64,000 nucleotides of DNA from Tubulanus polymorphus (Eukaryota; Nemertea; Palaeonemertea; Tubulaniformes; Tubulanidae). A program made the position numbers and the translations under genes. The notes under the pieces are model-generated. The model saw only the letters and a list, made by a program, of their open reading frames with translations, had not been told where the DNA came from and ran no database searches. Positions 3,060 to 60,278 of the stretch are shown here, piece after piece (position 1 is the stretch's first letter; every line of letters begins with the position of its first letter). The stretch lies in the NCBI RefSeq assembly GCF_964204645.1, contig NC_134026.1, positions 6,572,001-6,636,000 on the forward strand, written 5' to 3'.

Positions 3060-4358
3060 AGATTACCGTTGAATTTTCCCGGTCAAGTTTTCAGCAGATA
3101 TGACAAATTTCAGATACTTGCTATTATAGTCTTATGCTGACGTATATTTGTACTAGGAGTAATCATTTGCGAAATGATAACTCCAAGGTTTTTACTATTC
3201 CCTTGTATTACACTGAAGCTTCTTTCTCTCTGTTCTTTCAAAATGTAGCGTTTTTAAAAAGAAAGCACCACTCCGCGAAATAGATTCGCGTATTACGACA
3301 TATCAGCTCCTAAAATCCCTCGCTGACTAGATCTTGTTTTCCTGGTTCTCGATGAAACCTCATGAAACGCTGGGTTTCGTAAAGGTCTTAAAAATAAGTA
3401 GCAAATGAAAACATAACGTCGCATCTGCGTCTTAACTGCGTTGAAAGGTGGTGAAACGGTAACAGGATTGTGGCATCACATTCCCGAGACTTCACATCAG
3501 ATATATGCAGGAGACTTTGGTCGAATCATCGGCTAGAAATTCCGACATGATTCTATTGTTACGCCTGTCACCCCGAATATTCGTCGCATTTTTGTCGCCT
3601 TCGCCTAAAAGCAGAGAATGAGAAAAATCGAAAGATAAGTATATATACTCTCTGAAGCGCTGAGATATACCCGCATACCGGTGACGGCTACAAGGGTAAT
3701 CAATCGCTTTATGTCGCCGTAAAACCGTTCTACTTTTCACGTTACAACGAAGTTTTTCACGAAGTAATTCTGCACGCGATTGAAATACTGCATATCGTGA
3801 ACCGTAAATTAGATTATATTTAATTCGTTTTATCAGTAAATGCGAATTCTGAAGAATCGACAGCCGGTGACGTATGGGGAATATCGAAAAAGCCAATGCG
3901 CTTTAAAGCTATGACTTTGGATACTCGTGTGGAAATAGAAACTCTCTGAAGCTGTTTAAATTCTGAATGACATCTTTTATAAAATCTTCTTACCATCCCT
4001 AAATGCCATGTACAACCCGATAAACCGGCATCCCCGCCTAATGCCAGGTTTTTTTGTGAAACAAATATCCGCATATTGCTTGTACTAGTCAGGATTAACC
4101 CCCGAAATACCGCCATACTCTCTTTACTGCAAAATCCTAGATCGCTGGCGTGGGGCGGGCGGTTTATCAGGTATCGACCTACTTAATAGACGCCTTCTGA
4201 CTGGTAAACTCGATGACCGCTAGAACATTTTTCGAATAAAAAGTTTTAGTCCGTTATTGTCTCCTTAAGTTTATTATGAAAAATATGGTAATATTGACTA
4301 GCTGATAAGACTTCGTATATCTGCTTTAAATTGTCTTATATCGTTGCACAATAATCGG
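3060..4358. other. upstream flank of TMEM74-like gene, no gene seen
   Basis: Would contain the promoter and any 5' UTR exon of the minus-strand TMEM74-like gene. Overlapping minus-strand open frames of 134 and 98 codons (3492-4116) have no recognisable domain, no plausible partner exons and compositions that look random, so no gene is called. Confidence 0.4.
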
Positions 4359-4473
4359 TGCTGGCGTAGCAAAGGGGTTACTTCGATGTTCTAAGTTAGA
4401 GGATCTTGGGGTTCGAGTCCCGTAATTACGGGGCCCGAATCTGCCCTGTCTGTACCCCTTGCGCAATCCAGCA
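4359..4473 (+). repeat. palindromic-ended tRNA-like repeat, copy 1
   Basis: 115-bp element beginning TGCTGG-x-GTAGCAAAGGGGTTA and ending TACCCCTTGCGCAATCCAGCA, so the two ends are imperfect inverted repeats. Inside, at about 4413, is a good RNA polymerase III B-box-like motif GGTTCGAGTCCC; the left end resembles an A box. Two sister copies lie at 4796 and 5439 in the same orientation. Mobile origin (tRNA-derived SINE or MITE) is inferred. Confidence 0.6.
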
Positions 4474-4795
4474 TCGTTTTATTTCAACTTTATCCGAATG
4501 CGTGGTTTATTGCCCTGGAAGGAAAGAAAAGCCCATTTGCGGGAGGCGGTCTTATTGATTGAATAACCACAGCTAAATCATGTATGTAGTGGTGCAAAAA
4601 ATGTTGGTCTGGCGAAGCAACTAAATCATTCAATCGAAATTTTTCTGTATGGGAAGTCATAATCGAAGGCCATTTTAATCCCATATATACGTGATTACGT
4701 GTTTCGATTTTTTCTAAGCCCATTCGCGTTTATACACGGTGGGCGGTCTTACATGCGGCACTATAAACGTTATAATGTGGTTGTGTAATAACCAG

Positions 4796-4929
4796 TGCTG
4801 GTGCGGCAAAGGGGTTACTTCGATATAAAAAAACGTCAAAAACTCTAATGGAATGGATTTCCACTACGGGTTTCGAGTCCCGTATTTACGGGTTTCGATT
4901 CCCTTCTGTACCCCTTGCGCAACCCAGCA
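4796..4929 (+). repeat. palindromic-ended tRNA-like repeat, copy 2
   Basis: 134-bp copy of the element at 4359. Ends (TGCTGGTGCGGCAAAGGGGT and TACCCCTTGCGCAACCCAGCA) and the B-box-like GTTTCGAGTCCCGT at about 4870 are conserved; the stretch between A-like and B-like boxes is longer than in copy 1 and diverged. The B-box region can form a short stem ACGGG/CCCGT. Confidence 0.6.
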
Positions 4930-5438
4930 TTTTACTGTACAGGTAGCTTTAGTCAACCTAATGGTTTCATGGCCTGTTCGTTTTCTTTAAAATATGGACT
5001 TTTTGGCCCTATTTTAGGCTTCATATCAAAGCCCTACGTATACCTAGGACCAGGTACACATACGACAGGCCTAGGATTTTGTTCAACATCTCAATAGAAT
5101 TCATTTTTCAAAACCTTTTTCGGAATTTGAACGTCCTAAACCCCTGACTCCCCACGCTACGAGAAACACGGCATTAATTATTCCAGGAATTTTGAAATCG
5201 TTCTTTTTTCTATTTAAAAAAAGCCCGCCCGTCGAATTGGTTTTGATTTCCAATCAATGTGAATTGATTTTTCTATTCATACAGTTTAAGTATGTTTTTC
5301 TATTAAATAACTAAATCATTCATTTGAAGTTCAGGCATACTAAAAATCATACAACGATCATTTTTCCGAACTAGGGATTCCTCTCTAATCGATGGATCAT
5401 CCTCTGCTATATATGTTATAATGCGGGGAAAAACACGA

Positions 5439-5567
5439 TGTTGGCGTGGCAAAGGGGTTACTTCGTTGCATGAGAAACTCTAAATGTCGTTTAGAATATT
5501 TCTATGTGGTTCGAGTCCCGTATTCACGGATGTCGGATCATTCCTGTACCCCTTGCGCAAACCAGCA
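5439..5567 (+). repeat. palindromic-ended tRNA-like repeat, copy 3
   Basis: 129-bp copy of the same element, starting TGTTGGCGTGGCAAAGGGGT and ending TACCCCTTGCGCAAACCAGCA, with B-box-like GGTTCGAGTCCCGT at about 5509. Conservation is strongest at the two ends and the B box, with a variable interior. Confidence 0.6.
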
Positions 5568-7125
5568 TTTTCCACATTTTATATACATTATAGTTAGAAA
5601 TGAGGACAAAATTAGATTGTTCATGCGATCTTTAGATGTTGATCCTAGAAGTCAAATGCACGTGGGGAGATAATTACAGCCCACTTACACCTGACAGGTC
5701 CGCCATCCCCATTACACGATAAATCCCGATGTGATGCTCAACGGGCTAATAGAGGAAACAACATTAGGCATACGCATACATATTTACTTTTTGTAAATGA
5801 AAATGAAAAAATGGCCGTATCTTCGTAGTAAACACGATCGGGCTCCGGCGACCGATTCAGAGATGAGATTTGCATATCATTTACATAATATTTACACAGA
5901 CAATATACTATATACGATACGAGACTAGTCTTAATCTCCTCCGAAAAAAATTAACCTACACACCATCCCCTTTTGAAAGCACAAAGTCATGTAGACACGT
6001 AAAAAAAGTCGGAATATTTTTTGTCATAGCCCTGATATTTACATATATATTTGTAAGCACGCATGGGTCTGCTGCTACTTACCGTCTCTATACGTTAAAA
6101 GGATATTCTTCTTCTTCGCAGCAGCATTCCTTCATTTATTCCTTTACAAAATTACTACTAAATACTGCGCGGTATATACCACCAACGATATATAGACACT
6201 TATAATGAATTACATGATTTTACTGGAATCGATTGACAACAGCTGTGCGTCTAGCGGTTACTGAAGGGAGATATAGTGACAACAGATGACTCCATATATG
6301 AACTGTTATTTTATTTGTTTAAACGAACCCCCGCGATCGATCACTCAGATAACTCTCATCAGCCGTAATGTGTCCATTCAAAATACCCTCCCCCGTTTTA
6401 AACGATTAAAACGATAGCCTATCGTTACAACGTTTCACATTCCGACAATGCTAAAAACCAAGAACCAGCGTTACATTTCTAAAGTAAATTTCCTGCGACA
6501 GGTCTAATGAACCAATTCGCTTCCGTATAACTTATTGAATTCTGGCAGGATAAAGATAAGATTCATATATTTCTATATGTTGAAGTTTTGTAATCGGGAT
6601 ATAAAAATAGCATTGATCATTCAGGAACTCTAGACGTCATTTCAGCAATCGATTCTTTCTCCAGACTGTCAAACCGCCAGGTGGTGGCTTTGGACAAATG
6701 CTACAGGATGATAAACTATTGGGTTAAAACAGTATCTGGAAAGCAAACCAAACTTAATTCAATACTTTATAAAATATCTTTCAATTTATTTTTAAGGGAT
6801 ATATTTAAGAGCCCTTGTTTATCACTGTTTGGCTGTACCTTACTTAACGAACCCCGCAAAAACTATTTGAATTTGAATACCTTTAATACCCTTATATATT
6901 CTGAAAAACCCAACGGTCAAATTAGCTAAATTCATTAAGACCGGCTTAGATGTATATAGATCCCTCCAATAGTATATATAGTATTGTAAATAGTTGATGT
7001 ATATATATTTTGTTACGTTTTCGTTCTCTAAATTTTAACCACTTCAGTATTGTTTTGTAAATATTTGTATATACATGTGTAATAGTTTTCCTCCATATAC
7101 CATGGAAATGGTTGGAGTGTAAATA
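5568..7125. other. intergenic, no gene seen
   Basis: AT-rich; open frames such as 5870-6205 (plus) lack recognisable features and have random-looking composition. Nothing else stands out. Confidence 0.4.
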
Positions 7126-17732: not shown

Positions 17733-37670
<19,938 letters not shown>

Positions 37671-38730: not shown

Positions 38731-39835
38731 TCAAGCATGCACGGAATATTCGAGCCGGTGATTTTTAAAACAGTGCTGCAAACTCAAATACAATACCAGA
38801 ATTAAAATAATTATTTGCATCACCAAATTGGCGATGGTGAACCCGTTGAGGTTTTCACACTTTCCATCAGGGGGACAGCGGTATTTCCCTGGTTTTTTAG
38901 TCATGTTTCCTTCGTATTTCGTGGTCTACAAAAATAACCCAAATACAATATTACACACTAGAGCGGCCATCGTGGTTCACGCGAGATTTTGATCGCAAGA
39001 GATTTTGGTCAAAAACTCAGTCATGACCATTTTGACCAAGTAATGATATAATGGCATATAATCCAACATGGCCGTCAGTGACGTCATATCCAGTCTTCGT
39101 TCTGATTGGTCAATACTCACCTCGTTCATGATTATTTGAAATATCTGACGAATGGCATCATCAGACAGCGGGCCTTCGTTCTTCTTAACGATCTTATCGA
39201 GGACGATTTTCTCTCTAGCCGGGTCGTAAATCGGACGTTTGTTTTTTATCTTCCATTTTGCGACATGACCGGCTACGATTGTTCTTTGATTAACGGCTTC
39301 AAGAATTACATCGGTGAAAACATCTATATCTTGCCGATAGCAGTCCAGGTTTTTGTCATCTATTGAGCACGCTCCTGTGTTCCTGAGTCAGAAATAGATG
39401 GGTAGACTTAACTAAAATCTGTGGAACTGGGTCCCGAGTTCGCAAGAATTTCACAAAATAACGAAGGCCAGATTTACGGACTGGTAGCATCTTAAACCAG
39501 AGGTGGAAATACGTCAAACTCTTTTGAATTGCGGGGCGTTTAACGGACGACTTAGAAAGTTTCCTTAAAGTTGTAGTTCATATTTCCGTGTTATCATGAC
39601 TATGTATGAGACTTTGTCGTTCTGCGAGAACAATGACAGAGCGAGCAAGTAACAGTACGCAATCAGTAGGTGTTCAATTCATAGTCAATCAAATAGTTAA
39701 CCCCATTTAAAACGAGTCTCATGCTCTATAAATCCTGCCCCGCCGGGATTCGGTTTTTACTTACTTGCATTCGCTTGCAGATATAGTTTCACATAATACA
39801 GAAATCAGAAGAATTGATACAACCTCGACGAGCAT
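38731..39835 (-). CDS. secreted/membrane-anchored chorismate mutase (AroQ fold)
   Basis: Three exons (39835-39765, 39382-39121, 38925-38731) join in frame to 175 residues. Exon 1 is a signal peptide (MLVEVVSILLISVLC) with a perfect AA/GTAAGT donor; its phase matches exon 2. Residues about 37-116 match AroQ-type chorismate mutase (CM_2): NQR, AKWK, RPIYDPARE, GPLSDDAIRQIF. Aligned with E. coli P-protein CM, all eight active-site positions are filled: R40 (R11), R57 (R28), K68 (K39), D77 (D48), R80 (R51), E81 (E52), T112 (S84), E116 (Q88). Thr and Glu at the last two are the yeast Aro7 choices. Exon 3 adds a sequon (N118-M-T), a CPPDGKC pair, a hydrophobic anchor (about 140-160) and a short tail. 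The predicted topology is type I, with the catalytic domain outside. Family reaction: chorismate to prephenate. Animals lack the shikimate pathway, so substrate and role are unknown. Confidence 0.87.
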
Positions 39836-40541: not shown

Positions 40542-43500
40542 ATGGCTTTGGACTTCAGAGCTAAAACCTACCGTCCGTTAAATCGGTATGATACAAGATT
40601 AAAGTAAGTGTCTCCGATCAGAAAGTAATACATGTTTCTAGATTTTCGTAGTGAAGATATGCTTATTGGCGACATGTTACTGTGTGCGAATAGAAAAAAT
40701 ACATGTCGCGAAAAGGATTAGTTAATAGTTAGTCTAAAAACGATGGATCGAAATCAAATTATATGTATCAAATTATTGAATGATCCCAATGATTCGAAAT
40801 TTCATTGACTTCTTCACGATTTTAGACAATTCAAGTAAAACTTGTTGAGCTTTGTAGTTAAGGTACCCAGTTCAACAACAGTGTTGATCGAACATGGCAG
40901 ACGAACAGAATTGAACTTTAAAAGTCAAACTTAACAACCGAGAACACTGTAGAACTGAGTTCTGAAAATTAAATGATATAGTGGCGCAGAGCCATGACTT
41001 GAGACTATCATAGTTCTAGACCCAATCTTACGATTAAGACCAGTCTAAGCTCATTTTGGTTCCATCATAACCAATCTAACAACTTAAGACTAGTCTTGGT
41101 TCTATAGTCAATCAAACGACTTCAGACACGATCTTAAGATTTAACACCACTTTTGGCCTTATGTCACGACTGCGCAACTGTACTCAGGGGCCTTAACATT
41201 CCATGCAGTATATATTTCCGGTATATATTAGCCTTGTACGAAACGGACCTACGATTACGTATTATCGAATCCGGACTTTGTGCGACGTCTAGATCCGTAC
41301 AATCAACCTTACCTCACGATTACGCATTATCGAATCCGGACTTTGTGCGACGTCTAGATCCGTACAATCAACCTTACAAACAAATACATGTTTATAGTTA
41401 TCGTCAGCTATCATTCATATCGAAATCATTCATCATTTCATGAAAATGATTAATTTCCTATAACATAAATCAACGAAATATTAATCTTACAGTAGCTATG
41501 AATGTACAAGTAGAATAGCCCGTATACACTCAGAGACATGGTACATGATTACTATGATGAGAAAAATCCGACCATGCACCCATTTAAAAGATTAAAACCA
41601 GAATCTGTTATTCAAAAACGAACATTAAAAATGGAGCACAGAGAGAGAGTTCGAAACGTCGAGTCCTCCGTTTTTTATTTGAAATTTTTGATAAACGAAT
41701 TCTGCTTCTTATCTTTTAAAAGTCGGTTTTGAACGAATTTCATTTCAGTACTTCATACGGTAAGATGACGACTTGGTACCGAGCCCGAAATCAACTGAGC
41801 GATCCTGACAGAGATATGATCAGAAACAACATCGTACTTCCCACTATTCCAAACAGCCCTATGAAACCAGAACTGAATCATATTCCGAATCCGCTGAAAG
41901 TGAAAGTATCCGGCGGAAATTTCTACATCCCGCGACCGTTTACATTACCGGATCAGGGTGCCCGTCCCCCTTATGCCGCTAGTGACTGCGATCTAACCGC
42001 TAGTCTCTATAAAACATACGAGGCTAATTTCCAACCAGGAAAAGTAAGTCTGAAAAAAAATATTATCAAAATGTTATTATCGAGAAAATTAATTCTTACT
42101 CTTTATAATAATAAATTTTTGGAATTAGAAAACAAGACCCTATTAGGCAGGTTGCAGTTTGCACAGTTCCGAGTTATGATTTAACTCATCGAAAATGAAC
42201 TAATTCTAATTCGAGTTCAGAGTTAACTCTAACTCACAACTGTGGAACTGGGTCCTGAGTTCAGAGTTAACTCTAACTCACAACTACATGGAACTGGATC
42301 GAGCCATAGCTCAGAATTAACTCTAACTCACAACTATGGAACGCCAGAATCGATTGAATTGAGCCAATTAATTCTACGTCACAGATTGGTTATGTTATTA
42401 TTTTTAGAAATCGGATGCAGTTCACTTGCAGTACTACAGATCCGGGGGTTACGATGATTTTCATAAGGCTTTTCTTACTCATAAACTCAACAGACAAAAA
42501 CCATCGGAAATGGTCGCGCCGTACGGACCCGCTCAGTAAGATCTATATATAGTAACGGTTTTGAAATATGGAAAACATCAAGCAAATTGAGTGACATACA
42601 TGCGCGCATGGTTTAAGCGGTATAGATAGTATATTGTTGTGTCCCTAGGGGCCGGTTCAAAAGTCGAGACTTAAGTCCCAAAAAGTCCCTTAAATCTTGA
42701 GACTGGTCTTGAATTGTTAGATTGGTTATAGAACTCAGATGTTCTCGAATTGGTTTTAAACCTAAGACGGAACCAGCCCCCAGGATTGTTCTGGGGGTCA
42801 AATTCTTCTTTAAAAAGGGCCGAATCCACAAGGCTTTTCCTAAGGGCATCCCGGGGCTAAATCTTAGAACGGGTGGTATGATTTAAAAGGTAAAGAAATA
42901 TATTTCATTATTTCAAAAATGCCACCTATGGCTGAAATGTTGACTTAAATGTTGACTCGCGTTAGGCGAGGGGGTGTTTGTTCATCGTCGGGGGTTGACT
43001 GTATGTCTGAAGAATAGTTCACATACACCCCCATAAATAACAAATTGAATATTTCCATCTCTCGAATTTCATACTCAAAACAATAGTCGACATCATCTCG
43101 TGTTTATTCCCGAATAATTTATTGACGACAAATTCACGTTCGTTCTAAACGTCCGATTACGCAGGAAATAGTTGTATAAATCAAATTTCAGGACGCGAAA
43201 TGGCAATGTCGGCAGTAACTGGAGACATATCAAATCAATCAACGAAGCTCGTGGAATACGTAACGCATTTATTGATGGTAAATGCAAAAAGAAAAGAGTT
43301 TGTAATTGATAAACACCTGATGAAGCTACTATACACCAGTATATAGCGAAATCTCGTGCGTCTAATAAACAAGTTAACCTAGTACTTAAGTACTACTATA
43401 ATACCTTAAGTACTATTTGCTCGTTTCGTTGTAATGATATAGATATCAACCTGAAGCCTGCAACTACAAGCACTTCTTTACCATTTAACAGTCTGAAAAA

Positions 43501-47885: not shown

Positions 47886-48992
47886 TTACATCGACGATAT
47901 TTTATAGATATCTATAACCGACCCGTTCTCCGGCGTATTACTAGTACTGGGTGTTTTAGCTACAGACCGTTTCGAGACGATCGAAGCATTTTCCTGATCC
48001 GAATAGTCACGGCTGTTCATTCCCGTCGAATCTCGCGTGAACAAACGCTTCAAATCGCGACGAAAACTCTTCCCGCCCCCGATACAATAGAGATAGAAAT
48101 TAACGGCGCAATTCGCGTACCATAACTTGTGACAAATGGCGTAGACGAACTGACTTATCACCTCGGAATCGATGTTTTTGTTAAGTGGGTAAACAGTCTC
48201 TACGAATCTATAAACGCGTATCGGAACATTCAGCGCAATATACGCGGCTGAGACTAACAACAGCATTTTCGTCAATTGGTTTTTTTCCGATTTTTCGCGA
48301 ATGTCGTTTTTAACCGATACAGTTCGAGGGCCGGTGATTTTTTTCATTTCGGCTTTCGTACGCGAATAGATCGATAGGATCAGCGCGTTTAACACGGTCA
48401 AAGCGATTATCGGCAACAAACCGTGAAACGCCAGATCGAATATACTCATGAATTTATCGAACACGGGACTGTAACCGGTGCGGCGGCAAACGGTACGATT
48501 AGTTTTCGGCGATAAAGCGACGGTCATAGTAAACAACGGATAAATATTGAGCCCTATGACTATTGTACCGATCAGAGCGATGGCGAGAGCCGCCCTTTTT
48601 GTTGTACAGTATCTGGCGACTTTAAAAGTCCATCGGACGGCCACGTATCGATCCGCTGTCATACCGACAACCAACCACGACGAATAGTTTATAAAAGCGT
48701 ACATTATAAAAGTAAAACCGCGACAAACCTGATCCGTCAGCCAGTTCTTTAGGAAATTGAAATACATCCAGTAACTGGAAAGCGGGAATATCAGTATGAT
48801 CGAATCTACGACCGCTAGGGCGGCCATATAGACGGTCGTCGATGAAGTGCGCTTGCCTCGTAAGCGACGGATCATAATCGCGAAACTTAAAACGTTGCCG
48901 ATCAATCCGGAAATCACGACGAACGGCGGAATGTACAGGTCAATTATTCCGATTCCGTTTTTTAGTGCGCGATACGTGTTCTCATTCATCAT
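47886..48992 (-). CDS. class A GPCR, peptide-receptor-like, single exon
   Basis: Rhodopsin-family receptor of 368 residues from the first ATG in a frame that is open to 49055 (that upstream end begins GTG, behind an in-frame TGA). Landmarks in ATG numbering: N33 in TM1, D63 in TM2, C90 before TM3 paired with C169 in the second extracellular loop, intact D114-R115-Y116, and N298-F-Y-L-Y in TM7 where NPxxY is usual. A sequon N165-R-T and a Ser/Thr-rich C-terminal tail suit a plasma-membrane receptor. The overall look (NCAVNFYLYC, then K-S-F-R-R) recalls protostome neuropeptide receptors, but the ligand cannot be named. A spliced upstream start is possible because residues before M1 also look coding. 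Confidence 0.88.
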   Translation of the reverse strand: MMNENTYRALKNGIGIIDLYIPPFVVISGLIGNVLSFAIMIRRLRGKRTSSTTVYMAALAVVDSIILIFPLSSYWMYFNFLKNWLTDQVCRGFTFIMYAFINYSSWLVVGMTADRYVAVRWTFKVARYCTTKRAALAIALIGTIVIGLNIYPLFTMTVALSPKTNRTVCRRTGYSPVFDKFMSIFDLAFHGLLPIIALTVLNALILSIYSRTKAEMKKITGPRTVSVKNDIREKSEKNQLTKMLLLVSAAYIALNVPIRVYRFVETVYPLNKNIDSEVISQFVYAICHKLWYANCAVNFYLYCIGGGKSFRRDLKRLFTRDSTGMNSRDYSDQENASIVSKRSVAKTPSTSNTPENGSVIDIYKISSM

Positions 48993-51428
48993 ACAATCAT
49001 CGAGTTCAGATATACCTATAAAACACTCGTATGTCCCAAGCTCTACGGTTCCCACTATATTGATATCTCAATACGTCGATCCAGACTTTTAAGAAGAAGT
49101 TGATATTTCTAAAAGCGAAAACTAACAACAAGTTCTATCGACCATGTCCTAAACTGAAACACTTGAAATACTGAAGAAATTCGCTGAACGACGCAGCAAA
49201 TTGTTATTCTTTAGTTCGATACGTTACCGCATTTACTCACGATCAGATCCTCAACAGTTCGCGTTCAATTCAGCCACGAGTTGATTCCTTTTGTATACGT
49301 GCGTTCTTCTAACAAATTTAGATAGATAAATCCAATCACGTCTAATTCGATATTAATTCCCATTTTGTAGTCTGTATGAGGGGTATAAATTATATATATA
49401 AATCACGACAGGTCCGAGGACAATATCTGTACATCAGGAATCATCAATCGAAGCAGTGTCACTTTCCACCAGCCCCGATACATGAACGCGTCAAATTTAA
49501 CGACGACGGATTTCGTTTTTTTCGTCGTCAGTTTTTTTTCTTATTAACGATGAAACAAGAAACCGAAACATCAATGAATTTGCTGATGGTAATCGCACAC
49601 TCTCCACGCGTCGGCCGCCGTAAGCAGGATGGGTCCGATATCTAAAGGATCAGATGACCATTTAGCGACGACTCAAGTCCGGTTCAATAAATACAATAAT
49701 CATTAACTGGTCGATTGGCTAAAAACAAATCTAACGATTTTCTACAAATCAGAAAGGTCAGTTACATTGTTTCAGTTGTACGTAGAATGTTTGAATTTCT
49801 GTCCACTGATAAAATATATTCCATTGTCCATGTCTTTTGTTGTTTTAAAAACGAAAAACTAAGATATTTTAGCAGATGTTAGTGAGATACGCTATATTTA
49901 TCTGCCCTGTCCAGGGCTGCTCATCGCACTAACTGATCTCATCTCATCTCATATTTTCCAATTAAGATCTTGTATCGTTTGTCGTTTCGAGTATAGAGCA
50001 GTCACGAAGGTTTGAACAGTTTATGGAGCTTTCGCTCTTGTGTTAAAGTGTTATCCGTTAATGAACACGTTACTGGACGATGACAACAGTAGTTCCGATC
50101 ACGAGAACTGGTAGTTAAAGGAAATGGCACGACTTGCCGCATTAGTTTTGAGTTATTCGACAGGTTTAGATGTCTGCTGCTGCTGCCGGTAACGACTATA
50201 CGCCATCTCTGAGTGGGTGATTTACGCATGGACTCGATGACGTCGCGCAATAAGCGGACATCCACAATTTAAAATCTAACGGCTAAATTGCTTCGACGAT
50301 TTTGATTGGTTTGTATCTCGTGTGTAGTTTATCTTTAAGAGAATTGGTCTTGTATATATGCCATTAGAAATGAAAACACATGGTCTATCGCGCTGACCTT
50401 CGTTAGATATTACACCATCTTGTTAACACCAAGCATTATCTCCAAAATGTTAATATTCTATAAGGGGACCTATACTAGCTATGGCTAACGTTCACCTCGC
50501 ACAGTTTTGGTACATCAGCAGACCTCGTGGTTCGTGGTGAACCCCATCGTCCTCAATGTGAAAAAAATACAGCACAACTCACATTGATTGATTGATAAAA
50601 CGATTCATCGCGTATAATAATAAATCTTGTTGTTTTTTTTAACCCAGTGTGTTTCGTGCGCAAATTTTTAAAAGAAATGTATTCTATGTTGTGGATAAAT
50701 CACACCATTAGATGTAAATGATGGATTGGTTTGGGATCGCAGTAAATCATATTTTACTCGCTGCACGGAATGGCGACAGCTTTATCGGCTTCACCTATAT
50801 CTGTCGAAAAATCATTTTCAATGATTATGAAAATAAGTTTGATAAGAGATTTATGTTGAAATGTGTACTGTGTAACAATTCGCACCTTGACCATCCTCGC
50901 TTGCCAGGGTTTGGTTGCCGCCCGCCGAAGCACATGCCAACATAAACCCTGGTCGCAAACCCTTCATTGGTCTATTACGCCGCCCAAAATTTCTTGGGCG
51001 GACAGGTTGCCGCTCAGCGCCCACCAGTCTATATATCTAGCCAATCGATGATGTATCTGCGCTTCTTGAATTACCCGGAACAAGTTTTGAATTCTGACAA
51101 ATTGATTTCAAAGTAAAATGAACGTTTCCTCACCTCCATCACGAACCGATACGACGAAATGCAACCCGACCTTGCTACATAAGAACAGAAACTGAATTAC
51201 ACTGTACAAATATCTGTTGACAGTCAATGTAAATGCGACATCAAACTAATTCAATTCCTCAACAATCAATTGGATTCTAATAAATTTCTTAGAATTCTGA
51301 AATCAGGAAATAATTTATTCATCTTGTTTACTTATTGGTTATAATTAATCAATCAAATGAGTTTAAATGAAATGATCAATAGATACGCGTGTAAGTTGTA
51401 TGGAGTTAATCGAACTTGAAATCAATGG
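48993..51428. other. upstream of GPCR, no clear gene
   Basis: Would hold the promoter and untranslated exons of the minus-strand GPCR. A minus-strand frame at 50002-50265 is not recognisable. At 50895-51024 there is a repeat-like block with CCAGGGTTTG and AACCCTGG in opposite orientation. Confidence 0.35.
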
Positions 51429-52388
51429 TTTTGACTGAATTTCTACGGCGGATTTTCATACACAAATATATTCACGAATTTCCGGTCCCAGTAAAACATA
51501 TATGTAAAAATTTACCACAAAGTTACAAACATGAAACTGAGTGAATATAGTGAAGAGAAATTCTCTCTGTTCTGCTGAGATTGGCAAGTATACGGTAACA
51601 GTTGTTGGAAGTGTGGATATTGCAAATGCGAGAGAAACTGTTACAAGCATTATTGCTGTACGCTTTGATTTTGTAGTTTTCTGATCAGACGAAACCATTT
51701 TTGAGCCTCTGAATAACTGAATTATCATAATAGAATTTGATATGATAATGGAAGTTAACGGTAGAGAGTAAATGTGGATGATTATAATGGTGAACGATGT
51801 TATTTGGTCAGCTAATTCGTAGTAACATCCGAAAAAAAATGATCAGAAAAATGCAACGATAAAGTATGAAGAAGATTTATGACCAGTACATTTACTGCAG
51901 TAATTATCAATATAGCAAATCTGGCGAATCTCGGTGTACATATCAAACGAGATGTGAACGGGAAGAGCACAACTGCCGCACGTTCTAGAGATATTGCTAC
52001 TATAAACCACGAACTATTACAGGACGCAAGTATCATTACAAATTCATAAATTTTACAACTGATCAGTGAATTCATCATGAATATAGGATCATCTTTAACG
52101 TGCATGAGAAAAACATTGTAAAACAGGCATCAGAGTTAGACTAATGCAGTAAATAGTATCACAGACTGATAAAACGATAAGATATTTAGCGTAAGATGCG
52201 TATACTGCGGAATCTACGACATCATTATCAGGAATGTAGCTGAATTTCCGAAGGCTCCAAACAAATACAAGATAGGCAGAATGGCCAATGAAAGCGCGTG
52301 GTAAATTCCAGGCTTGTTTGATACGGATATTAGAACGATGTAACCGCTGTAAGTTCGACCAATCGGAATCTGGGTTAGTAAATTCATG
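51429..52388 (-). pseudogene. GPCR pseudogene of the tandem family
   Basis: Clear similarity along its whole length to the two intact receptors at 53134 and 55283, but split over several frames. The start region (MNL at 52388) is open until a TAG at the end of TM1, coding similarity then moves to another frame through TM2, another from TM3 to TM5 (51812-52105), and another for TM6-TM7 (51456-51728). The C-terminus is also shifted and stops early at CV. These are several independent indels, so it is a decayed copy and not a spliced gene; no intron signals sit at the breaks. Confidence 0.85.
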
Positions 52389-53133
52389 TTGCACTGGATA
52401 CACGAAGCATTGAGAAATGAATCTCATGCGAATGAAAAATCAAAATAGATATTGATTTATTTCTGGCGATTAGATTTATTTGTTCTAGTTGAAATCGTTT
52501 TTACATACATGAGGTTAATTTATTTGGAAAATCAATTCTTCGAAACAACACAAAACCTAAATTGTGTGAAATGCTTTATGTGTCAGATATAAGACAACTA
52601 AATCACAATGAATTCCTAACTGCAGGCAAGATAATCACACGTGGACTGCAGCGCAATGATCAACCGTCTGATGAACCAGTGTTCAAGCCCGATACTTGTG
52701 CCGGATCATTTTGATACTGTTTTTGATTATTTCGATATGATTAAAAAGAACGGCAATTTTTCTAATACTCTATCTGGAAAACCTATATTTTGTTTTCTGC
52801 AAACCTTCAATAGAATAAAGCAATTAAATGAATTTAGTTTAAAAAGTTAAATTTGAAACAAATGACAAATTTATCCTTTACCTCTTTGTATTTGTGTATG
52901 TTGTGTAGAAAAATAAGCAAATAAAAATAAACAGATTCAACGACCTGTGGATGAGTTGAATTCATGATTCGCGATAATTAACTGTTCAAGGTGTGGACTG
53001 AATGTATCAATAGACTGACGAAAATTAAAATCCACACACTCAATGATAATGGAAGCCAAAGATTTATTGTTTGCAACAAGCTAAAGATCAATTCTCAGAA
53101 ATCTGGGTCAGTGAGATCACTTGAACTTAATGG

Positions 53134-54084
53134 TTATTTCACTGAATTTCTACAAGAAACTATCATACAGAAATATTCACGAATTTCTCGTCCTAATAAA
53201 AGATATACGTAGAAATTAATGACAAAGTTACAAACATGGATGTGTGTGAATATATCAAAGAGGAAAGCTCTAAGTTTTGGATCAATTGGTAGAAAAGAAG
53301 TAATAGTGGTTGGAAGTGTAAACATTGCAAATGCGAGTGAAACTGTTACAAGCATTATCGTTGTACGTTTGGATTTTGCAGTTTTCTGATCAGACGAAAC
53401 CATTTTTGAACCTCTGAATAACTGAAATATTATTACAGAATTTGATGTAAGAATCAAAGTTAACGGTAAAACATAAACGTAGATTACAATTATGATGAAA
53501 AATTTTATTTGGTCGAATAATTCGTGGTAACATCCGAAAAACTGATCGGGAAAATATAGCGACAAAGTGGGTAGAAGATATAGAACCAGTGCATTCACTG
53601 CGATAATTGACAATATTGCAGATCTAGCGAATCTCGGTGTACATATCAAACGAGATGTGAATGGGAAGAGCACAACTGCCGCACGTTCTAGAGATATAAC
53701 TACTATTAACCACGAACACATGGAAGAGGCAAGATGAATTACAAATTCATAGACTCGACAACTGATCAGTGAATTCATCATGAATATTGAACCAGTTCCT
53801 GTGTGCAAGAGAACAAATTGTAAAACAGGCATCAGTGTAAAATTGATACAGACCGTGAAATCACTGAGAGACAAAACGATCAGATAGTTAGCGTAAGACA
53901 AACCGCGGAATCTGCGACTAATCATAATCAGGAAAGTAGCTGAATTTCCGAAGGCTCCTAACAGAAACAAAATAGGCAGAGTGATCAGTGAATACGTGAG
54001 GTAGCTCCCAGACCTGGTCGCCACGGACATGAGAATGATGTAACTAGCATATGGTCGACCAATCTGTATACGAGTTAGATTCAT
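53134..54084 (-). CDS. small class A GPCR, tandem family member A
   Basis: Single exon, 316 residues, ATG start and seven hydrophobic segments. N47 (TM1) and D75 (TM2) are kept, as is the C109-C185 disulphide pair. The DRY motif is E133-R134-A135, TM6 lacks CWxP (it reads FTLPTT), and TM7 has N290-F-Y-V-Y. Loops are short and there is almost no C-terminal tail (ends SCRNSVK). It is very similar to the gene at 55283 and the pseudogene at 51429, which shows local tandem duplication. An AATAAA on the minus strand at 53068-53063 is a suitable poly(A) signal. The ligand is unknown; peptide or chemosensory use is a guess from family expansion. Confidence 0.85.
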   Translation of the reverse strand: MNLTRIQIGRPYASYIILMSVATRSGSYLTYSLITLPILFLLGAFGNSATFLIMISRRFRGLSYANYLIVLSLSDFTVCINFTLMPVLQFVLLHTGTGSIFMMNSLISCRVYEFVIHLASSMCSWLIVVISLERAAVVLFPFTSRLICTPRFARSAILSIIAVNALVLYLLPTLSLYFPDQFFGCYHELFDQIKFFIIIVIYVYVLPLTLILTSNSVIIFQLFRGSKMVSSDQKTAKSKRTTIMLVTVSLAFAMFTLPTTITSFLPIDPKLRAFLFDIFTHIHVCNFVINFYVYLLLGREIREYFCMIVSCRNSVK

Positions 54085-55009
54085 GATTCCATAGGGGGAG
54101 CCAGTTAACTTACTGTCTGAGAGTGTCTACTGACTATCTGAGAGTGCGATTGTCGTAATGAGAGTGGCTGTCTGGGTGTCTGAGAATCCACTGACGCTGT
54201 ACATTGACTGACAGTGTCTCTTCGCTTATTGGAAAATTGATTCAATGTTGAAGAAATCATGCGAAAGATTATTTGTATCAAATTGAAAAATCAATTTTCA
54301 GATTTATGAAGTTTCACTTTCGCTTGAAATGCAACTAAATTATAAATATATACAATCCAAACAATACTTCATTGTAAATGGTGAAGCATTTTACATAAGA
54401 TGACATCCGACTAGTATTGAAAATATCTACCAATTCTAAGGGGGGAGGTTCTGTTCAACATCATCCAAACGCAATATTACACTGACATGCAGCCAGGAAT
54501 TATCGAGGGCAGTTCTTTAACCTACAAACAAAAAACAGATTAAGCAAAACTACAGATCTCACGGATCTAACCCTCGATTTAAACGCAACGTTAACAAAAA
54601 CACGACATGTGCTGAGTTAGTATGTTAATTTGTCCGGTTAGTGTGGTGACCAACGAGATGTAGTACTAGCTGGTGAACAGTCAGTCGCAATCACCGCCAT
54701 CATGACTACCATCCCTATTTGCACAATCACCGCGATCCCCATCCTCGTGACTATCAATTCCATCACCACCATCTCCACCTTCACCACTTCACATGTTGAA
54801 CCAGTCGTCCAGTCAACCAGTCGCTCGGTCATCCAGCCACCCGGTCATCGAGTCATCCAGTCTAGGTCACAATATAGTTCCTTATTCGGCAACAAGGATA
54901 CACATGCACAAATAGCCAGGAGTTCTCAAGGGCAGTTCGTTATTCCAGAAATAGACATATTTTTCCATTTCTGATTAAAAAGACACAAAATCTTGACCAA
55001 AACCTAGAT
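54085..55009. other. spacer between GPCR paralogs
   Basis: Contains degenerate CTGTCTGAGAGTG repeats just upstream of the receptor start (54100-54210) and a simple CCAGTCATC-type repeat at about 54795-54860. The block at about 56255-56330 upstream of the sister receptor carries the same CTGTCTGAGAG motif, so the duplication included 5' flanking DNA. No further gene seen. Confidence 0.45.
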
Positions 55010-55075
55010 TCGAATCGAATCGGGAATATCCGGGGTGCAAGCCACGTGCGCTAACCACTACTCCACTGAGCTTTA
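55010..55075 (-). repeat. tRNA-like SINE fragment
   Basis: Minus strand: A-box-like AGCTCAGTGGAGTAGTGGTT, then GCGCACGTGG, then a B-box-like CGATTCGATTCGAATC. It lies between the two intact GPCR paralogs. Confidence 0.5.
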
Positions 55076-55282
55076 GTTTGTCAGGTAGTCACCACTTTAC
55101 AGCCTTGTGATCATATAATTCTTTGATAGGTTTCTAAAGAGGTTTCTTCGGAACATCACATAAAAAGTTATTTGTAAATGTGAGTTGGATAGAATGACTT
55201 ATTATATTTATTCATTTATTTATTCTCCGTAACACATCAAATCTGGTTAAAGTTCCGTAAGGAAATCGCTTGGAATTAATGC

Positions 55283-56233
55283 TTATTTTTCTGAAATTCT
55301 ACAACAGAGTTTCATACAGAAATATTCACGAATTTCTCGACCCAGTAAAAGGTATATGTAAAAATTTACCACATAATTACAAATTTGAAACTGAGTGAAA
55401 ATATCAAACAGAGAATCTCGTTGTTCCGTAGGGATTGGTAATAAAACAGTAATAGTGGTTGGAAGTGTAAATATTGCAAATGCTAGTGAAACTGTTACTA
55501 GCATTATTGTTATACGTTTTGATTTTGTAGTTTTCTGATCAGACGAAACCATTTTTGAACCTCTGAATAACTGAATTATTATAACAGAATTTGATACAAT
55601 AATCAAAGTTAATGGTAGAATATACGAGTGAATGACTCCCACGATAAGAAATGTTGTCTGGTCGTTTAATTCATGGTAACATCCGAAAAACTTGTTGAGA
55701 AAATTCATCGACAGAGTAGGTATGAGGTAAAGAACCAGTACATTCAGTGCGATAATTATCGATATAGTAAATCTAGCGAATCTCGGTGTACATATCAAAC
55801 GAGATGTGAACGGGAAGAGCACAACTCCCGCACGTTCTAGAGTTATAGCTAATATTAACCATGAACTATTACAGCCGGCAAGTGCCATTACAAATTCATA
55901 GATTTGACAACTGATCAGTGAATTCATCACGAATACAGGACCACCTTCAACACGCCAGAGAACAAACTGTAAAACAGGCATCAATGTAAAACTATTGCTC
56001 AATACGAAATCACAGATTGACATAACGATAAGATAGTTCGCGTAAGATAAACCGCGGAACCTGCGACTAATCATTATCAGGAAAGTAGCCGGATTTCCGA
56101 AGGCTCCTAACAGGAACAAGATAGGCAGAATGACCAATAACACAGTACGGTAGCTACCAGACTTGTTCACCAGAGACATAAGGACGATGTTACCAACGTA
56201 AGTTCGACCAATCAGCATTCGAGTTAGATTCAT
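55283..56233 (-). CDS. small class A GPCR, tandem family member B
   Basis: Single exon, 316 residues, same length and landmarks as the receptor at 53134: short N-terminus (MNLTR), GN in TM1, E-R-A in place of DRY, a cytoplasmic RGSKMVSSDQKT segment, NFYIY in TM7, and a very short tail. Differences concentrate in TM2-TM3 and the extracellular loops, where ligand specificity would be set. AATAAA signals on the minus strand lie at about 55225-55208, some 60-75 bp after the stop. Part of the same tandem array; no ligand assigned. Confidence 0.85.
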   Translation of the reverse strand: MNLTRMLIGRTYVGNIVLMSLVNKSGSYRTVLLVILPILFLLGAFGNPATFLIMISRRFRGLSYANYLIVMSICDFVLSNSFTLMPVLQFVLWRVEGGPVFVMNSLISCQIYEFVMALAGCNSSWLILAITLERAGVVLFPFTSRLICTPRFARFTISIIIALNVLVLYLIPTLSMNFLNKFFGCYHELNDQTTFLIVGVIHSYILPLTLIIVSNSVIIIQLFRGSKMVSSDQKTTKSKRITIMLVTVSLAFAIFTLPTTITVLLPIPTEQRDSLFDIFTQFQICNYVVNFYIYLLLGREIREYFCMKLCCRISEK

Positions 56234-57344
56234 TATTCAAGAGGATCGACGTATGACACGGCTGTTGAGAGTTTACTGACTGTCTGAGAGGGTACCATCA
56301 GTCTGAGAGTGCACTGACGGAGAGCACACTCACTGCCCGGGTGTGTACAAAGACTCTCGAGTCTGAGGCCGAACTTGAGAATGAGCGTATCGTCCCTCAT
56401 TATCTAATTGTATCTCAATTTTGGCGAATTCATCTGTAGAATTAATGTTAACAGTGAAATATAAATTTTCAGAAATCTGACACAATTTTTGCTCGGATTT
56501 ATGATTATCAAATTTATTACAGTGTGAGTTATAAATGTAATTTGATATGATTTCTGAATTCATTGTAAATGGTAAAATACCTTATTGTCAAACATCTGAA
56601 CATGTGAACATTAGATATGAAACGTTATCTAATTATACTGGTCGTCAAATTTGTTGAGGATTTTGTATTAGAAGCATAATTTGTGTATTTGTATTTCATG
56701 TTGCATATTATACTTGCCGTTAGTTGAATTGTATATAACGTGTATTTTGTAGTTCAATGACTGTTACGTATCATGAGCTGCCTCCTAACCTTAGAAATAA
56801 ATCATACCATTGCAACGCATTGTCTGTTTTACTCGCTATGGTTGTGGTCTCCGGCTCCCAAGTGCATAAAACCATAATCCTCAGGTCCACCAGATGCAAC
56901 GGTCTTTAACAAATTATTCGGTTGTTTCAATCGGAAAATGATTATCGGAATGTCTCTCTACGCGCGTCCTACTGATTTACAGGCAAAGTTCTGGAAAAAA
57001 CCAGAGTCCTCCGCTGACCACCCTCAACTGATTCGTACTTCAGGTGCATGCCCGTCAGAAGGATAGCAACTAAGAAATAAAGTCTAAACTTGATCCGTGG
57101 CCCATTGTAGTCCATCCAAGAAAATGTCGGATCAAATGGAGTGTCCTGTTCGACATCACATTGAGATGATTGCTTGTAGGTCTGAGAGTGTGCTGACCGA
57201 GAGTACTGACTGTCCGAAAAATGGAATTGACCGGGTTTTCTCGCGTACGTATTGGGAAATTGATTCAGTATAAATAAAATCCAGAGATATCGCACTGAAA
57301 ACGTACGCAATTTGTCCTCAATAGATAAGATAGTGCACTAAAAC
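56234..57344. other. intergenic between GPCR array and coiled-coil paralogs
   Basis: The left end carries the CTGTCTGAGAG repeat block shared with the sister receptor. Minus-strand frames at 56330-56563 and 56969-57310 are not recognisable as genes; the second repeats the same CTGAGAG-type sequence (about 57180). Contains the promoter of the plus-strand gene at 57345. Confidence 0.4.
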
Positions 57345-57380
57345 ATGAAAAATATACGTCGCTGTTCTATACGAGTCAAG

Positions 57381-58199
57381 ATGGCAACCTTTAGAGAAGT
57401 TGTCACGTTTGAAGACAAAATTTCTGTTTCTTATAACGGCAGAAAAATAAACGTTTGGTCGGATTCACGAAATCGTGATAGAAAAATTCAGAAATACTAT
57501 TACGATCCATTGTTTGATCTGGAACCTGGACTTACAGCTTCATATCACGATTTATTACAACTGGTGATAACGTTGTGGAGCGAAGAACTGGAGATTGCGA
57601 TAGAAAAGAAAATTAATGAATTGTACGGGGATGAAATGAAACTGGTTTTAGAAATGATGCCGATTGATAGCGTAAGTTTAGTGTAACTTATTACACAATT
57701 AAAACTAACAGTTTTCTATGAACGCCTGTCACAGTCCACACCATATATCATTTATCATTGGTAGGTCAAATTAGATTGGAGAAACCCAATTGGTGGGATC
57801 AAAGAACCATCTCAACCTATATCACTGTCTCAGTGTCCCATGAATCAAACGTTTGGCCTTGCATGTGATAGCGTTGTCAAGGCTAGAGACCTCAAATGCT
57901 ATATTCGCGAGTCTCCACATGTGATAGTTTGGGGACTTCACGCGGATTGTGAAATACAGGGCTGCAAATGTTCATACAAAGTGAATTTGCCAAACGTTGA
58001 AAATCCGGCCATATTGCAGGCTTTGAGAAATGAAATCGCTTCACTCAAACGAAAACTAGATAATACAATAACCAGTCACAACGCACTGAAGGACAGCATC
58101 AAACAGCATTATGATAACTTTGAAAACCGGTTCGAACAAATACAACTGAATAATATCGATGAATCAACTCAACAAATGCCAAAGCAATCTGGAAAGTAG
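57381..58199 (+). CDS. unrecognised two-exon coiled-coil protein, paralog 1
   Basis: Exons 57381-57671 and 57765-58199 (phase 0, GT-AG) give 241 residues. An ATG at 57345 would add 12 residues, but the one at 57381 aligns with the start of the paralog at 59390 and has a matching context. The first exon has SYNGRKINVWSDSRNRDRK, KYYYDPLFDL and VITLWSEELE; the second starts VKLDWRNPIGGIK, has SQCPMNQ, several Cys and YKVNLP, and ends in a charged heptad-like region (SLKRKLDN, SHNALKDSIKQH). There is no signal peptide or membrane segment. I do not recognise the family. The shared architecture with the next gene shows both are real. AATAAA follows at 58499. Confidence 0.75.
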
Positions 58200-59353: not shown

Positions 59354-59389
59354 CAAGCTGTTTCATGACCTTGTTTCATTAGGTCAAAG

Positions 59390-60278
59390 ATGGCGACCCG
59401 TGGAGCCGGTGGATCTGTCATCAACCGTACCACATTTGAACACGAAATTGCCATGTCTTATAACGGACGAAAAGTAAACGTTTGGTCGAATTCACGAAAT
59501 CGCGAAAGACAAATACAGAAATATTATTACGACCCGTTGTTTGATCTGAAACCTGAATTGTGTGATTCAAGTAATTCTGTATTACAACTGGTGATAACGT
59601 TGTGGAGCGAGGAACTGGAGACTGCGGTTGAAAAGAAAATTAAAGAATTGTACGGGGATGAAATTAAACTGGTTTTACAAATGATACCCATCGATACGGT
59701 AAGTAAGTTCGAACTCAGCTTGAGACCGACACAGTCCAGTCGAATATCATCTAATAATTGCTTTATTTATTTGTTAGGTGAAACTAGACTGGATAAACCC
59801 ACCTGGTGGGATCAAAGTACACGTGGATCCTATATCACTGAGTCATTGTCCGATGAATCAACTGTTTTTAGTTTCATGCGATAATGCTGACAAGGCTACA
59901 GCCTTCAAACAGTGTTTGCGCGATATGCCACACGTGCTAATTTGGAAGCTTCATCTGAATTGTTTGCGACAGGGCTTCAATTATAGATACAAAGTGAATT
60001 TACCAATCCTTGAAAATCCGGCATTAACGAAAAGTGTGAGAAACGAAATTGTCTCTTTAAAACGACAGATTGATAATAGGACGACAAAAGCCAGTCACAA
60101 CGCACTGAAGGACAGCATCAAACAGCATCACGATAACTTTGAAAACCGGTTCAACCAAATACAACAGAATATTGATAAATTAAGCCAACAAATGCCAAAG
60201 AAGAAGATAAGAAATAGTGACATCACAGGATCAGTAGAGAAACAGTGCGAGAAACTGGATAAATCAAATGGAATATGA
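59390..60278 (+). CDS. unrecognised two-exon coiled-coil protein, paralog 2
   Basis: Exons 59390-59698 and 59778-60278 (phase 0) give 269 residues, with the intron at exactly the same place as in paralog 1 (after PID-S/T, before V-K-L-D-W). Shared blocks: SYNGRK, VWS-x-SRNR, KYYYDPLFDL, ITLWSEELE, LYGDE, GGIK, CPMNQ, YKVNLP, NEI-x-SLKR, SHNALKDSIKQH. It differs by an extra GGSVIN segment near the start and a longer basic C-terminus. Function unknown; the helical C-terminus suggests self-association. AATAAA lies at 60373. Confidence 0.75.

Follow-up and report, generated by a model that had tools for sequence, protein, structure and literature searches.

A putative membrane-anchored chorismate mutase and its paralogue in the genome of the nemertean Tubulanus polymorphus

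Inspection of a 64,000-nucleotide stretch of the Tubulanus polymorphus genome (contig NC_134026.1, positions 6,572,001 to 6,636,000 of the forward strand; hereafter the window, whose numbering is used below) reveals a minus-strand gene that is predicted to encode a chorismate mutase (CM) with a secretory leader and a membrane anchor. There are three exons. Exon 1 (71 nt; 39765..39835) contains the start codon and a leader of approximately residues 1–21, and its GTAAGT donor interrupts the frame in phase 2. Exon 2 (262 nt; 39121..39382) encodes the AroQ chorismate mutase domain with residues R40, R57, K68, D77, R80 and E81, and the donor that follows it is GTGAGT, in phase 0. Exon 3 (195 nt including the stop codon; 38731..38925) encodes the end of helix 3 with T112 and E116, followed by a stalk, a hydrophobic segment and a tail. 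Both introns, on the same strand, have GT-AG borders (intron 1, phase 2, 39383..39764; intron 2, phase 0, 38926..39120). An earlier note on this DNA had proposed that these exons join exactly into a leader, an AroQ domain and a C-terminal transmembrane segment, and the coordinates, splice sites and reading frame are as it described.

The spliced product is 175 residues long. A hydrophobic leader (core VVSILLISV) precedes the AroQ domain (residues 39–116), which is followed by a short cysteine-containing stalk and then, some 25 residues beyond E116, by a hydrophobic segment at about residues 142–160 (Kyte-Doolittle mean 2.54 over these 19 residues) and a 15-residue hydrophilic tail. The extra C-terminal helices of the AroQ-gamma type are not present. 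A glycosylphosphatidylinositol anchor was considered and rejected, because a hydrophilic tail follows the hydrophobic segment. The leader and anchor assignments, here and in the second copy described below, are hydropathy readings of the sequence; from them we infer entry into the endoplasmic reticulum (ER), a membrane topology and an extracellular role.

The domain assignment is clear-cut in profile searches. The only Pfam family to match the protein at E ≤ 1 is CM_2 (PF01817), at 67.3 bits and E 1.4e-18 against a cut-off of 27, which bears out the earlier identification of the domain. In NCBIfam 19 families match at E ≤ 1, all below their own cut-offs, the best being DAHP synthase-fused CM types at 56–57 bits. 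The AroQ-gamma profile TIGR01806 (cut-off 74.15) scores 40.2 bits with this protein and 17.9 bits with its paralogue, and membership of AroQ-gamma was rejected on these scores. The paralogue scores 54.7 bits for CM_2, above the same cut-off, and has 16 NCBIfam families listed, all below their own cut-offs. A sequence search of the PDB returned ten distinct matches at E ≤ 1, nine of them CM proteins or domains (including 5gmu, 2d8d, 3nvt, 5j6f, 6cnz and 1ecm); the tenth (E 0.88) is unrelated to CM. As judged by these profiles, both genes belong to AroQ / CM_2 and not to AroQ-gamma; the domain of the window protein is of the short three-helix AroQ form.

The catalytic positions can be followed individually. 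Residues 37–113 align with 1ecm 8–85, and this match together with an alignment to the PheA CM domain places R40, R57, K68, D77, R80, E81, T112 and E116 on E. coli positions 11, 28, 39, 48, 51, 52, 84 and 88, whose catalytic roles we take to be those of the E. coli enzyme. Leaving aside the AroQ-gamma row L098, these were compared with 88 bacterial rows, made up of 80 scan loci, six genome loci and two rows from plasmids. R40, R57, K68, R80 and E81 agree in 88/88 rows and D77 in 84/88, although agreement at positions 77–81 is inflated because the rows were partly picked by a YDPxRE-like pattern. At position 112 a single row of the 88 has T, as against 44 with S and 38 with G; at position 116, E is found in 21/88 and Q in 66. 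The claim that all eight active-site positions are conserved therefore needs qualification: all lie where they were placed, six carry the standard residue, and T112 and E116 are conservative replacements. Taken together, the bacterial rows share the residue of the window protein in 546/704 cells of the catalytic columns and in 1549/6159 of the remaining core columns; the corresponding counts for the paralogue are 458/704 and 1596/6159.

The predicted fold is in keeping with this assignment. AlphaFold (AF2) was given the contiguous exon 2 translation as a monomer, alongside 24 bacterial loci drawn from the 80, so that the model ends before T112 and E116. The mean predicted local distance difference test score is 91.2, and there are three helices, at positions 12–46, 54–67 and 74–86 of the piece. 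Foldseek returned 64 matches at E ≤ 10, and among the best 50 the nine highest are AroQ CM domains with root-mean-square deviations (rmsd) of 0.7–1.7 Å. One of them is 2d8d_B (template modelling (TM) score 0.86, rmsd 0.9 Å, 77 columns); 1ecm_B (TM 0.82, rmsd 1.4 Å) and 5gmu are also matched. Standalone AroQ-gamma structures give TM scores of 0.57–0.62; with exported CM fusions the score reaches 0.67. Structure prediction, which had been suggested as a check, thus yields the three-helix AroQ fold for the part of the protein encoded by exon 2.

A search of the genome (267,791,593 bases in 77 contigs) with the CM_2 profile gave two hits, which were both of the two candidates scored: the window gene, whose contig is 31.9 Mb long, and a paralogue (C4:5640981-5643059) on another contig of 27.4 Mb. 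A search for COX1 had no match, and no mitochondrial contig was recognised. The protein search (E ≤ 10) gave five matches, namely the three exons of the window gene, the paralogue (E 1.4e-23, 51% over residues 26–112) and one noise match (E 6.6). The two genes have several features in common. First, the paralogue is likewise split into three exons (71, 256 and 261 nt) with GT-AG sites and introns in phases 2 and 0, and the gene model in the window is supported because its exon layout and intron phases recur there. Second, its first exon is diverged yet leader-like, and has the same length of 71 nt. Third, its product ends in a hydrophobic segment (Kyte-Doolittle 2.57) and a basic tail. Fourth, both copies have cysteines at window-protein positions 23, 29, 38, 128 and 134, and the sequon N110-E111-T112. 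The paralogue departs from the catalytic set by an E81 to A change, and is a candidate pseudoenzyme.

Divergence between the copies is extensive. Identity is 57/112 aligned residues and 40% over the whole proteins; in the 112 aligned codons the proportion of nonsynonymous differences (pN) is 0.354 and that of synonymous differences (pS) 0.886, which is too high for a Jukes-Cantor estimate of the synonymous rate, and the sole alignment between the introns is one 15-base match (E 0.068). Two copies with these features are strong evidence for an old, established animal family under purifying selection.

Relatives outside this genome were sought in collections of prokaryotes, plasmids and viruses. 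A prokaryote scan with a three-row mixed alignment (A4) gave at least 591 pattern matches and 144 relatives, of which the best 80 were kept. Among the matches listed, the nearest is a 113-residue open reading frame (ORF) in a Calditrichota metagenome-assembled genome (MAG), with 31/78 core residues (39–116) identical, or 43% in the local tblastn alignment; next, at 29/78 each, are two short ORFs (L094, L096) and one of 401 residues (L029). The kept loci (best 80 of 144) are mainly short ORFs of about 92–131 residues from Desulfuromonadales and related MAGs, together with Bacillota ORFs of about 350–430 residues, the length of DAHP synthase fusions. Of 82 genomes from the phylum to which the Calditrichota MAG belongs, 53 match the two-copy profile. 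Scanning the prokaryotes with the two-copy alignment, whose patterns were taken from the animal-type N-terminal motif, gave 65 pattern-matching stretches and no relative. Thirteen plasmid records match by tblastn (best 39% over residues 32–110), and the viral collection yielded no relative in three scans, with the whole protein, the core and the two-copy alignment.

A phylogeny was built on 96 columns from 35 rows, made up of the two animal sequences, 24 of the 80 loci, six genome rows and three plasmid rows. The animal pair forms a clade with support of 100/99 on a long stem, apart from the Nostoc AroQ-gamma row. The deeper order does not resolve and the bootstrap had not settled; because little beyond the animal pair resolves, we claim no donor lineage.

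The enzymes expected around a CM were also sought. At E ≤ 0.001 the genome has no match to chorismate synthase (PF01264), prephenate dehydratase (PF00800), chorismate-binding enzymes (PF00425), EPSP synthase (PF00275), prephenate dehydrogenase (PF02153) or shikimate kinase (PF01202), a result that covers these six families (the search did not extend to DAHP synthase, shikimate dehydrogenase or the dehydroquinate synthase and dehydratase) and in which short exons could be missed because the search runs exon by exon. The same profiles are positive in 14 (PF01264, PF00800, PF00425, PF00275), 13 (PF02153) and 11 (PF01202) of 14 control genomes, and an in-genome positive control, the aromatic amino-acid hydroxylases (PF00351), gave 25 exon-level matches. 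The premise that this is an animal without chorismate synthesis is accordingly upheld for the families tested. In the parts of the literature available, the shikimate pathway is described as lost on the animal stem and regained in cnidarians (PMC6040629), and shikimate pathway genes are reported in a sea anemone (PMC3018139).

On balance, we put at about even the chance that this is a genuine animal gene whose product is an AroQ chorismate mutase, anchored as a type I membrane protein and working on chorismate that comes from microbes, algae or the diet. The leader would send the protein into the ER; the three-helix domain, folded as predicted, would dimerise as its AroQ relatives do and would face the lumen or the outside, tethered by the C-terminal segment to the plasma membrane or to the membrane of a digestive compartment or a phagosome. 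At that surface chorismate would be converted to prephenate; the substrate would have to be supplied from outside, by microbes, algae or food, because chorismate synthase and the other tested shikimate genes are undetected. Prephenate is acid-labile and yields phenylpyruvate without an enzyme. Host transaminases could turn phenylpyruvate into phenylalanine, and a prephenate enzyme would therefore not be needed. In yeast CM, Glu at the position of E. coli Gln88 is linked to an acid optimum; the scheme would suit both the Glu at the equivalent position 116 and the fact that no prephenate enzyme was detected. Tentatively, and short of an even chance, we further suggest that the pair represents an undescribed animal family of AroQ enzymes tethered outside the cell, which has become fixed and has been duplicated in an animal unable to make chorismate; the window protein would in that case be a salvage or detoxifying ectoenzyme, and the A81 copy would be drifting towards binding.

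Several observations weigh against a catalytic, extracellular enzyme of this kind. First, no basic residue precedes the hydrophobic core of the leader. Second, other residues are more common at the positions of T112 and E116, and the sequon overlaps T112, where a glycan might hinder the site. Third, the paralogue carries A at the catalytic position E81. Fourth, no prephenate-using enzyme (PF00800, PF02153) was detected in the genome, and the absence of the pathway itself has been probed through six families. Finally, little free chorismate is to be expected outside cells.

The main rival, above all for the paralogue, is a non-catalytic binding ectodomain: the CM fold would have been reused, with little or no catalysis, to bind a protein or a ligand; the latter might be a chorismate-like microbial metabolite, for which the protein would be a sensor or receptor, or something else. 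The loss of E81 in the paralogue speaks in its favor, for catalysis is therefore not required of the whole family, and the A81 copy may serve in binding. An anchor with a short tail, the undetected prephenate enzymes, and the conservation of cysteines and the NET sequon outside the catalytic set are likewise in line with such a role. However, the window gene keeps six catalytic positions identical and two conservatively replaced, better than the rest of its core, and for this gene we regard a pseudoenzyme as unlikely, though deserving of serious attention.

A defence enzyme would have the same anatomy: the ectodomain would destroy microbial chorismate at an epithelium or in phagosomes and so deprive microbes of the siderophores, folate or quinones derived from it. 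Duplication of the gene is compatible with such a role. Nonetheless, it is general knowledge that microbes make chorismate inside their own cells, beyond the reach of an ectoenzyme, and there is no immune-type domain in the 16 ORFs or joined ORFs scanned with Pfam (of 143 ORFs of at least 70 residues in the window), so that a defensive function appears improbable. We think it very unlikely that the gene is real but its product not extracellular, with the true start elsewhere or the leader a mitochondrial or signal-anchor sequence; the missing basic residue would fit, but the first exon of the paralogue is equally leader-like, with the same length and phase, and the cysteines and sequon are conserved. 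Bacterial contamination, mis-assembly or a chance gene model is scarcely credible and was rejected, for although the domain is of prokaryotic type and the closest sequences outside the genome are bacterial in the collections searched, the layout, intron phases and constraint shared by two intron-split copies on separate large contigs are a strong argument against it, strengthening the earlier case from introns, leader and animal neighbours, and the six shikimate and chorismate families are undetected in the genome and the best bacterial identity among the matches listed is only about 40% (31/78 core; 43% local).

The protein is closest in sequence, profile and predicted fold to the short AroQ CMs, that is, the standalone ORFs of Calditrichota and Desulfuromonadales and the CM domains of the Bacillus and Thermus DAHP synthases (PDB 5gmu, 2d8d), which have the same three-helix domain and catalytic positions. 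The standalone ORFs, however, have by eye no leader before the domain, and among the matches listed share at most 31/78 core residues with it. The putative leader, a hydrophobic stretch in both copies, would be a likeness to exported AroQ-gamma (TIGR01806; PDB 2fp1, 6cnz), and the AroQ-gamma wording VAxWKxxNxKPIxD (Nostoc row, 6cnz) is similar too. Burkholderia 6cnz is a weak match in the PDB search (21 bits). In the part of PMC10520331 available, exported AroQ-gamma is said to occur in bacteria, some fungi and nematodes, and its best-studied member to have six helices and a C-terminal disulfide; by contrast, the short domain described here ends in a stalk and a hydrophobic segment.

Chorismate mutases are described as rare among animals in the available part of PMC4828791, which treats nematodes and insects and reports that the secreted nematode effectors cluster with Burkholderia CMs. 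Those effectors resemble the window gene as CMs of presumed horizontal origin in animals without a shikimate pathway, but going by their description they are secreted, whereas the window protein carries a putative anchor; a soluble secreted protein is argued against here because both copies have the C-terminal hydrophobic segment. The CM of Bemisia tabaci, of bacterial origin and in an animal nuclear genome, has Enterobacteriales affinity and a symbiosis setting, and its description, in the part of PMC4607527 available, mentions no membrane anchor. Fungal and nematode secreted CMs differ in origin according to the available part of PMC12607891, where the smut effector Cmu1, a secreted CM acting on plants, is presumed to be a duplicate of an endogenous fungal CM. 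The accessible portion of PMC6005172 does not mention chorismate. In what was available of the literature on animal and secreted CMs, where the animal examples are plant-parasitic nematodes and sap-feeding insects, we found no membrane-anchored animal CM, although unremarked automatic annotations of such genes in other invertebrate genomes are likely. Beyond the earlier note, the analysis adds the second copy with the same layout and an E81 to A change, and the placing of the domain as a short three-helix AroQ that fails the AroQ-gamma profile. If the proposal is correct, there are animals that come across chorismate at a membrane surface and benefit from converting or sensing it, a concrete and testable route of feeding or host-microbe metabolism, and there is a second architecture of secreted CM beside the secreted plant-parasite effectors.

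The neighbouring genes are of animal type. Convergent with the CM gene is a long plus-strand exon of a collagen-like gene (35673..37667), which at 21.2 bits falls below the PF01391 cut-off of 27.2; a collagen exon ORF at 32620-32991 scores 37.4 bits, above that cut-off. The long exon contains a 33-base (11-codon) imperfect repeat in 6.3 copies (36430-36636). The other neighbours above the Pfam cut-off are rhodopsin-type G-protein-coupled receptors (GPCRs; up to 97.5 bits) and Neurensin/TMEM74. The GPCR ORFs form a minus-strand cluster at 47889-56236, and at 51459-52439 a GPCR-like sequence is split over overlapping frames, with one piece just under the cut-off (29.6 bits); it looks like a decayed copy. 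The G+C content at third codon positions of the CM coding sequence is 0.455, inside the range of four neighbouring ORFs (0.325–0.534).

The window has some further features. A 65-base tandem repeat (two copies, 97% matches) lies at 41247-41377, roughly 1.4 kb past the start codon of the CM gene. On the plus strand, 57342-58196 and 59369-60275 are a tandem pair encoding similar-looking proteins with SYNGRK near the start, and no Pfam family scores above cut-off in the parts scanned. Three tandem vault RNA matches, all above the Rfam gathering score, are located on the plus strand at 4358-4478, 4795-4934 and 5438-5572.
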